NCBI GenBank assembly: GCA_016188385.1
Contig: JACPHV010000003.1
Span: 1 to 35,874 of the forward strand
DNA length: 35,874 nt
From: Candidatus Uhrbacteria bacterium
Lineage (GTDB): Bacteria > Patescibacteriota > Patescibacteriia > JACQRZ01
Direction: 5' to 3'
The position numbers and the translations under genes were made by a program. Shown one piece after another: positions 17,222 through 19,205 of this stretch; the stretch's first letter is position 1; each line of letters opens with the position of its first letter. Under the pieces are notes generated by a model. The model was not told where the DNA came from. It saw only the letters and a list, made by a program, of their open reading frames with translations, and searched no databases.

Positions 17222-17306
17222 CGGAAGGGGCGGGATTCGAACCCGCGGTACCTTTCGGTACACAGTCTTTCCAGGACTGCCAATTAAACCGCTCTTGCAC
17301 CCTTCC
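17222..17306 (-). tRNA. tRNA-Ser(GGA)
   Basis: GGAAGGG/CCCTTCC acceptor, anticodon stem-loop CAGTC-CTGGAAA-GACTG, long variable arm GTACC-GAAA-GGTAC, T-arm GCGGG-TTCGAAT-CCCGC, discriminator G. Confidence 0.96.
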
Positions 17307-17958
17307 ACATTTGGTACTTACCATTGATCCTCTCATTCGACGTATTAAAAACTGAAAGATATGAATGAACGGCTTTATCACTATACAAATATATACTCCT
17401 CATCTGCTTTGCGTAGTGTGGCTGCACACCATTTTCCGCCAAGATATTCCCGACCGATACAAGAAGTTTTTTTGAGTAACTCACAAAGCAAAAACCAATA
17501 TTCCAATACCTATTGCCGCTAACGCTATGTTTATGTGTATACAGGCAACCATCGGTATCAACGAGTCCACGAACAAATGCTCGCTTATATTCTGACCTAC
17601 CCTCTATCCATGAGGGTATATCAATTTGCTGTTCTATCTTGTTTCCACGCACCGCCCCCATCTTTACAAGAAAATCAACGAGATTCGTGCTGGAAAATCT
17701 TAGTACCAGTGCTTTGCTTTTTTTTTCTTTTTTGGCTGCAGCTTCAATACCAAAAAGTTCTTTGCCTAATTGTATAACATATTTGGCATACTCTCTATCT
17801 GCCACTGAATTTACCGTTACCGTAAGCTGCCAATCGTTATTAATTCCACCGTCACCAAAAATTATACCCATGAACTCTGCTAATTTTTTTGATTTTTGTG
17901 GATATTGGATTTCCTTCCTATGGCTTTTTTTAGGGTATTTCAATTCCGATAAAAACAT
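17284..17958 (-). CDS. LAGLIDADG-type homing endonuclease-like protein; C-terminus runs into tRNA-Ser
   Basis: Two LAGLIDADG-like motifs: LAEFMGIIFGDGGIN and FVRGLVDTDGCLY. The track ORF begins at GTG 18000; ATG at 17958 is a more likely start. Confidence 0.85.
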   Translation of the reverse strand: MFLSELKYPKKSHRKEIQYPQKSKKLAEFMGIIFGDGGINNDWQLTVTVNSVADREYAKYVIQLGKELFGIEAAAKKEKKSKALVLRFSSTNLVDFLVKMGAVRGNKIEQQIDIPSWIEGRSEYKRAFVRGLVDTDGCLYTHKHSVSGNRYWNIGFCFVSYSKKLLVSVGNILAENGVQPHYAKQMRSIYLYSDKAVHSYLSVFNTSNERINGKYQMWKGARAV

Positions 17959-17973
17959 ATGAGGAGCTCTCAG

Positions 17974-18014
17974 CGATTTAATACATGCGCACTCGACCAC
18001 TATGCGAACCCTCC
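17974..18014 (-). other. Putative orphan 5' half of a class II tRNA (tRNA-Ser-like)
   Basis: GGAGGGTTCGCATAGTGGTCGAGTGCGCATGTATTAAATCG looks like acceptor 5' strand, D-arm (GCA..TGC) and start of an anticodon arm; no matching 3' half (..GGTTCGA..ACCCTCC) seen downstream. Confidence 0.45.
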
Positions 18015-18050
18015 CTAATGCATGCGAGTAAAAATACGGTCACTATTGTA

Positions 18051-19205
18051 CTAACTTTCTTCTGATTTCTCAAGTGCCGTGTTCTGCGCGTCAGTCTGCG
18101 CGGGACTTTCGATTTCATTTTTAATTTTATCAATAATCCGCGTAAGGGCGCGATCGCGTGTTCCTGCCATAGCGACGAATTGCTTGTCTACCTGCTCGAT
18201 TCGCGCGCCGAGCGTATCAATCGATTCTGAAAACTTTTCGTACTCTTGCTCAAACTTCTGAATCAAACCGATCACATTGTGCAAATTTTCTTGATAGCGA
18301 AAATTCGTATACGCCTGTTTGACCATGCGCAACAAGGCAGTAAAGCTAAAGGGTCCTGCTAACACCACCTTTGAACGCAACGCCGCTTCCCATACTTCCG
18401 GCAGCTCGCTATAGATAAAGGAAAAGATCATCTCGTTCGGAATAAACAGCACAACAAAGTCCACTGTCCTGTCTTCTATATTAATATAATCCCGACTCGT
18501 CACCTGCTTGATTTTTTGTTTCACATCCTGCGCAAACTGGCGCACATACCGTTCACGTTCGCCTCTATCTTCCGTCTCCGACATCTTCAGGAGCGCGGCA
18601 TACGGAAATTTCACATCAACGTTGATTTTGGTGCGGTCCGGCAAATACACAATAAAATCGGGACGCGTACTGATCGACTCCTGTTCTTTATTATGCACAT
18701 AGTCCTGCCCGGAAACAAATCCAGCCATCATTAAAAGATTTTCTGCGACATGTTCGCCGAACGCGCCGCGAAGCTGATTATTCGACAGTACGCGCTTCAG
18801 ATCGGTAGTCGTTCCTTGGAGATCCTTGAGCACTTCCCGTTGAGCGGAAAGCTCCTGCTGCAGGGCGGCAAAACTCGAGATTCTGCCTTTATCCGACTCC
18901 TCCAAATGGCGCTTGCTCTCGAAGAGATCGCGCCGCATCTCTTCTACGAGGGTTACGATCACGTCTTTCTTGTGTGACAACTCGGCTGTGGATTGATCCT
19001 GGAGCGCGCCAAAACGCTCTCGGGCCAGTGAAAAAAATTGCTCTTGCGTTTTATTGAGCACATCTGAAGCCAGCCGCGAAAAAGCCGTTTCGAGATTTGC
19101 TTGCACGTGTTTGTTAACATCGCGAGAACGAAAAAAAACCCACACAAACAGTGCTCCTACAATAAAGGATCCACTGATCAATACAAAGGCAAACGGGAGT
19201 GACAT
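18051..19205 (-). CDS. rmuC: RmuC-family protein
   Basis: N-terminal TM, coiled coil, then LRGAFGEHVAENLLMMAGF...RPDFIVYLPDRTKINVDVKFPYAAL...FVVLFIPNEMIFSFI. Confidence 0.95.
   Translation of the reverse strand: MSLPFAFVLISGSFIVGALFVWVFFRSRDVNKHVQANLETAFSRLASDVLNKTQEQFFSLARERFGALQDQSTAELSHKKDVIVTLVEEMRRDLFESKRHLEESDKGRISSFAALQQELSAQREVLKDLQGTTTDLKRVLSNNQLRGAFGEHVAENLLMMAGFVSGQDYVHNKEQESISTRPDFIVYLPDRTKINVDVKFPYAALLKMSETEDRGERERYVRQFAQDVKQKIKQVTSRDYINIEDRTVDFVVLFIPNEMIFSFIYSELPEVWEAALRSKVVLAGPFSFTALLRMVKQAYTNFRYQENLHNVIGLIQKFEQEYEKFSESIDTLGARIEQVDKQFVAMAGTRDRALTRIIDKIKNEIESPAQTDAQNTALEKSEES

Follow-up and report, generated by a model that had tools for sequence, protein, structure and literature searches.

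Fungal mitochondrial mORFs with a replacement C-terminus have been described in Allomyces atp6 and in Glomus atp6, atp9, cox2, and nad3, and their mobility is stated to have been shown biochemically (PMC3630166). They are the nearest described system to the cassette reported here and follow the same logic: a LAGLIDADG ORF (in the mORFs, alternatively a GIY-YIG ORF) lies inside an essential gene, a foreign and divergent replacement part adjoins the ORF, and the orphaned native part matches close relatives. In the mORFs, the affected gene is a mitochondrial protein gene and the replaced portion is its 3' part, encoding the C-terminus. The cassette is not a member of the mORF type, because it occupies a bacterial tRNA gene and replaces the 5' part, with a full tRNA at its far side; it is also distinguished by a phylum-wide distribution over several isoacceptors.

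HomeR, an engineered, Cas9-based home-and-rescue gene drive in Drosophila (PMC7968924), shares with the cassette a nuclease directed against an essential gene and a functional replacement that is carried along. The cassette differs in being a natural single-protein LAGLIDADG system in a tRNA gene, and the analogy is one of working, not of kinship. LAGLIDADG insertions in CPR rRNA genes are known, some of them classed as introns, and tRNA is absent from the main text of that report (PMC11270868). These insertions and the cassette have in common the host group and domain families that include LAGLIDADG_3, but the former are rRNA insertion sequences, whereas the latter contains no intron and corresponds to a gene rebuilt at the DNA level. 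Genomic islands that integrate into tRNA genes are driven by an integrase, regenerate the 3' end of the tRNA, and leave a fragment behind. The cassette is likewise inserted in a tRNA gene, with a regenerated tRNA and a leftover fragment, but it has no integrase, the regenerated end is the 5' end with a changed sequence, and the fragment is itself a 5' end. No report of homing endonucleases replacing tRNA genes was found in the open-access literature searched; a replacement-carrying endonuclease element at tRNA genes is the feature that sets the cassette apart from the known systems.

The locus lies in a stretch of 35,874 nucleotides (the window) from the 1.03-Mb genome of a Candidatus Uhrbacteria bacterium which, like every genome used, is a metagenome assembly. 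On the minus strand, rmuC is followed by an orphan 5' piece of tRNA-Ser(GGA), by the ORF of a homing-endonuclease gene (HEG), and by an intact tRNA-Ser(GGA) (Table 1). As an earlier note on this DNA had proposed, tRNA nucleotides 1 to 23 double as the final codons of the ORF (...WKGARAV-stop), with the TAA falling in the D-loop, and both ARAGORN and Rfam recognized the intact tRNA-Ser(GGA) that it had placed beside the ORF.

Table 1. Features of the cassette locus in the window
Feature	Position	Strand	Basis or remark
rmuC	18051..19205	minus	Pfam RmuC 1.4e-62; left neighbor of tRNA-Ser(GGA), synteny in 11/11 family genomes
Candidate -10 box (TACAAT) in the promoter of the original tRNA-Ser(GGA)	18045..18050	minus	Read from sequence; common to G001
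Orphan tRNA-Ser(GGA) 5' piece (native, displaced; nt 1 to ~26-31), left insertion border	17984..18014	minus	Identity to relatives
LAGLIDADG homing endonuclease ORF	ATG 17958 to TAA 17286-17284	minus	224 aa; Pfam PF14528
Intact tRNA-Ser(GGA), non-native type	17222..17306	minus	Rfam tRNA 50.4 bits; ARAGORN 17307-17221

The LAGLIDADG assignment of the ORF, also made in that note, was borne out by a match to the Pfam profile PF14528 (LAGLIDADG_3) above the cut-off (E = 2.4e-8), and the same profile was matched by all 16 aligned family members. The reading frame is open further upstream, to a GTG at position 18000; the ATG listed in Table 1 was picked as the family-consistent start by analogy with loci L055 and L220 (MxxxLxYPxKSHRK). 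Numbered from the GTG, the single chain contains two LAGLIDADG motifs, GIIFGDGG (D50) and RGLVDTDG (D150), whose catalytic-type Asp residues (DG/DTDG motifs) are invariant in the 16 aligned sequences. The AlphaFold2 model of the product shows a LAGLIDADG fold (pLDDT 87.3), with I-Tsp061I as its best PDB match in Foldseek (E = 8.4e-13). Judged by these motifs and this fold model, the ORF encodes a LAGLIDADG endonuclease with predicted site-specific cleavage and homing activities, and the filled and empty alleles described below fit homing. The LAGLIDADG gene is the only recognized gene within the insertion, which contains no integrase. The phage and plasmid collections searched gave no match, and the viral contigs searched gave a single short partial match. 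Most family members (L032, L034, L035, L036, and L046 to L048) are extended at the N terminus by a part that gives helix-turn-helix matches and bears an RKKKWxEWW motif; the window ORF and L055 lack this extension.

The arrangement of rmuC followed by tRNA-Ser(GGA) is kept in all 11 genomes of the window's family (f1). Comparison with the empty site had been set beforehand as a refuting test, and its outcome favored the earlier note: HEG-free relatives do carry tRNA-Ser(GGA) there, each of the 10 having a single copy. In eight of them, the native tRNA-Ser(GGA) starts with GGAGGGTTCGCATAGTGGTCGAGTGC or a near variant, and the orphan piece is identical to these syntenic genes at 23 to 26 of 26 nucleotides, the full 26/26 being reached with G002; the best match in 100 shuffles of the upstream region was 18/26. 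A native tRNA-Ser(GGA) query recovered nucleotides 1 to 31 at the orphan piece in the window's genome (94%), with the exact match fading beyond nucleotides 26 to 31, at the D-arm/anticodon-arm border. Thus, the upstream 5' half that the earlier note had recognized is indeed a piece of tRNA-Ser(GGA), but it stops at this border and does not reach well into the anticodon arm as supposed. The native 3' half, which the note had likewise not found, was absent from the window's genome in the search with native tRNA-Ser(GGA): for the remainder of the query, the only matches besides the intact tRNA and the Ser(CGA) gene were short, conserved segments within other tRNAs, indicating that this half does not lie elsewhere in the genome. 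Two HEG-free relatives, G001 and G008, have a non-native tRNA-Ser(GGA), and these copies are possibly footprints of lost cassettes. The HEG-free tRNA of G001, which belongs to the same genus as the window, is near the window's own; this counts against the cassette reading, as replacement and loss may have come in either order in this genus. A similar trailer (GAATTTCAGAATCAGGGTTTT or variants) occurs 3' of several tRNA-Ser genes in G000, G008, G009, and relatives.

The intact tRNA is the sole Ser(GGA) gene in the window's genome, and it is identical to the native-type orphan piece at only 14 of 26 positions over nucleotides 1 to 26. Its 5' part matches HEG-linked tRNAs at 21 to 24 of 27 positions, versus 16 to 19 of 28 to 29 for natives of type A, the native D-arm type. 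This 5' part and the anticodon arm resemble HEG-linked tRNAs of other genomes; over the variable arm and the T arm, the tRNA is at no greater distance from the natives than from HEG-linked tRNAs. Such a pattern of likeness fits a crossover inside the window's tRNA, without proving it. Since the orphan piece matches the native gene, the intact tRNA differs from it, the 3' half is absent, and the gene is single, the native tRNA was broken at this locus and a different tRNA-Ser(GGA) is now serving; the case for this structure of insertion, retained piece, and different tRNA is strong. The earlier suggestion that one tRNA was destroyed and another fused to the ORF is therefore supported on both counts. 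The intact tRNA, however, is no surviving neighbor: it is non-native and resembles HEG-linked tRNAs.

The type A D-arm was found in none of 22 HEG-linked tRNA-Ser(GGA) genes versus 22 of 34 HEG-free genes (two syntenic loci), a difference with a Fisher P value of 4e-7 when kinship is ignored; an independent-pairs test of HEG presence against D-arm type had only three pairs available (P ~0.5). The near-perfect orphan pieces (L214, L220, L221, L226, and the window; 25 to 26 of 26, shuffle maximum 18) are all of type A, and the tRNA beside the HEG is non-native in every locus that retains such a piece. At L219, the HEG-linked tRNA differs from the HEG-free native tRNA of L248 only at D-arm nucleotides 11, 16, 20, 23, and 25, and the changes at 11 and 25 are paired, preserving the D-stem. 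Weighing against the cassette reading, a clear orphan piece is kept in about one-third of the GGA-type loci, and it is unrecognizable in others (L055, L219, and L222).

We consider it likely that a mobile HEG cassette targets tRNA-Ser near the D-arm/anticodon-arm border and brings a divergent rescue 5' part of the tRNA. According to this model, the LAGLIDADG enzyme would cut the native tRNA-Ser(GGA) gene near that border, and repair would copy the cassette from a donor, with the tRNA 5' piece as the left homology arm and tRNA 3' sequence as the right one. The product has the structure seen in the window, namely, the native piece (nucleotides 1 to ~27), the HEG, and a full tRNA whose 5' part would be cassette derived. 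The incoming tRNA retains serine identity and the anticodon and differs in the D-arm; it could for this reason replace the host tRNA and presumably escape cutting, as it would no longer be a target. A cassette of this structure would therefore destroy and rescue the host tRNA gene in a single step. The orphan piece would persist because it serves as the left homology arm, and the model accounts for a tRNA that differs exactly where the insertion lies.

A second empty site was found at an unrelated locus, htpX-tRNA-Ser(GGA), which holds the cassette in L220, L221, and L226. Across the L220 family (59 genomes), the tRNA at HEG-free htpX loci has either GGAGGCGTCGCATAGTGGTCTAGTGC-ACCGCCTTGG... 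or a D-arm of a second type; the cassette loci consist of nucleotides 1 to 26 of the first D-arm type, the HEG, and then a tRNA with another D-arm. The filled locus L221 and the empty locus L230, which are on contigs of one MAG, have closely similar flanks except for a 70-nt gap, and they agree exactly up to tRNA nucleotide 27 and diverge thereafter. They are a near strain-level pair of filled and empty alleles. The htpX tree shows five scattered occurrences of the HEG and 11 changes of D-arm type. A recent transfer, considered on account of the identical tRNAs of L212 and L221, was rejected, as the HEG-tRNA segments are just 68% identical. At two loci, a tRNA 5' piece precedes an intact tRNA-Ser with no HEG present. 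One is L254, at the htpX locus, where the intact tRNA rather than the piece is of type A, a reversal of the usual order; the other is the Ser(UGA) locus of G003:C25 (L271). Both pieces are likely scars of an endonuclease gene since lost.

Relatives of the ORF were gathered by protein similarity alone, with search patterns free of tRNA, yielding 78 family loci among 84,980 species genomes, in Patescibacteria and some Omnitrophota. A tRNA-Ser was present near the 3' end of the ORF in 74 of the 75 loci with enough downstream sequence, the exception having a tRNA-Arg. In most cases, the tRNA-Ser overlaps the ORF or sits at most 50 nt away, with its 5' end facing the ORF end, and the isoacceptors comprise GCU, UGA, CGA, and GGA. 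Sequence resembling the tRNA-Ser 5' end, as scored with a position matrix, is enriched upstream of the ORFs relative to other parts of these loci (P = 3e-9). The HEG tree is sorted by isoacceptor, with 10 changes versus a shuffled mean of 36.7 and none of 200 shuffles as low; the nearest relative of the window's HEG (54%) belongs to another family. In the GCU lineage (e.g., L155, L156, L159, L162, L169, and L173), the upstream sequence reads TATAAT-GGAGATATGGCTGAA, and its ATG starts the HEG. This tRNA-like piece may have been turned into the start site of the HEG, possibly for a leaderless transcript.

More distant relatives of the endonuclease were found at tRNA-Tyr and tRNA-Gln genes, and other LAGLIDADG genes at tRNA-Leu. 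Upstream of the altered intact tRNA-Gln of G007 is TGCGGGATCGTCTAATGGTAG, which resembles the native Gln gene of the family (TGCGGGATCGTCTAACGGCAG in G000); similarly, the altered intact tRNA-Tyr of L058 is preceded by TTACCGAAGCGGTCAAA, which resembles the Tyr gene of G000 (TTACCGAAGCAGTCAAA). In L065 (G018), a different LAGLIDADG gene is preceded by a 5' piece that resembles Leu(UAG) and extends to the anticodon, and it is followed by an intact tRNA-Leu(UAG). Lineages of one endonuclease family thus appear to act at the Ser GGA, UGA, CGA, and GCU isoacceptors, and relatives probably act at Gln, Tyr, and Leu. We lean, on balance, toward viewing these elements as a natural home-and-rescue drive, in which each endonuclease lineage would cut one isoacceptor at the D-arm and carry a recoded, uncuttable copy. 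This would have led to repeated wholesale turnover of tRNA-Ser, -Gln, -Tyr, and -Leu genes in Patescibacteria and Omnitrophota, with scars after endonuclease loss.

The arrangement in the window, where an intact tRNA-Ser(GGA) accompanies a broken one, could also have arisen by entry of the HEG between, or into the first of, two preexisting tandem tRNA-Ser(GGA) genes, with survival of the downstream copy, and the similar non-native tRNA present without a HEG in G001 is in agreement with such an origin. However, none of the 10 HEG-free relatives has a pair at the rmuC locus, and none was reported at the HEG-free htpX loci. The arrangement is found again in dozens of genomes and at four isoacceptors of serine, each case calling for a tandem duplication of its own, and the intact tRNA is non-native wherever a near-perfect piece remains. 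Survival of a tandem copy is accordingly improbable; of the readings proposed in the earlier note, insertion into a tRNA-Ser gene is supported and insertion between tandem genes is not, given the single copy in each of the HEG-free relatives. Nor do we give much weight to a free-standing, vertically inherited HEG in the leader of the tRNA, for which the orphan piece would be a tRNA-like promoter or start region. The GCU-lineage sequence does combine a promoter and a start codon with only partial likeness to tRNA, but the piece is identical to native tRNAs at 25 to 26 of 26 positions in the window, L214, L220, L221, and L226; moreover, the empty allele L230 is the same as the filled one through the piece and diverges at nucleotide 27, and the HEG is scattered on the htpX tree.

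Because introns often harbor LAGLIDADG enzymes and the gene is broken close to the anticodon arm, the 5' piece and the ORF might be read as belonging to a split tRNA gene or to a tRNA intron, of either group I or archaeal type. This possibility has almost no credence in our view: no group I intron was found at any threshold, nor any other intron or RNA family of Rfam around the ORF, the native 3' half that would form the exon is absent from the genome, and the downstream tRNA is complete, with a 5' part of its own. A last alternative accepts homing and attributes the D-arm change to drift or isoacceptor exchange rather than to protection from cutting. Several D-arm types do exist at loci that lack a HEG (12 of the 34), and on the htpX tree the type changes often. 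In contrast, the D-arm type of the orphan pieces is missing from all 22 HEG-linked tRNAs, and the L219 tRNA departs from the native one in the D-arm only, with paired changes at positions 11 and 25. We regard drift or exchange as unlikely.

The usual view is that tRNA genes are conserved and inherited vertically. Under the home-and-rescue reading, a selfish gene has apparently overwritten them time and again, throughout a phylum, with altered copies of foreign origin. If true, this would explain the strong D-arm variation of tRNA-Ser among closely related members of these bacteria, represent a natural equivalent of the engineered home-and-rescue drives, and offer, for new endonucleases, ready target pairs of which one member would be cut and the other is predicted to be spared.

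An inverted copy of the native D-loop (ACTAGACCA, 8 to 9 of 9 positions) precedes the likely -10 box of the HEG in L201, L212, L218, L219, and L226, and an imperfect copy is present in L213. It could serve as an operator to which the endonuclease binds. As a general promoter feature of GGA-type loci it was rejected, being absent from the window, L055, and L222. Finally, L268 (G000:C9:6310-6384) is a 75-nt tRNA-like gene with the anticodon UGA and no long variable arm; ARAGORN calls it Ser, the Rfam score is low (39.2 bits), and it is perhaps a degenerate tRNA.
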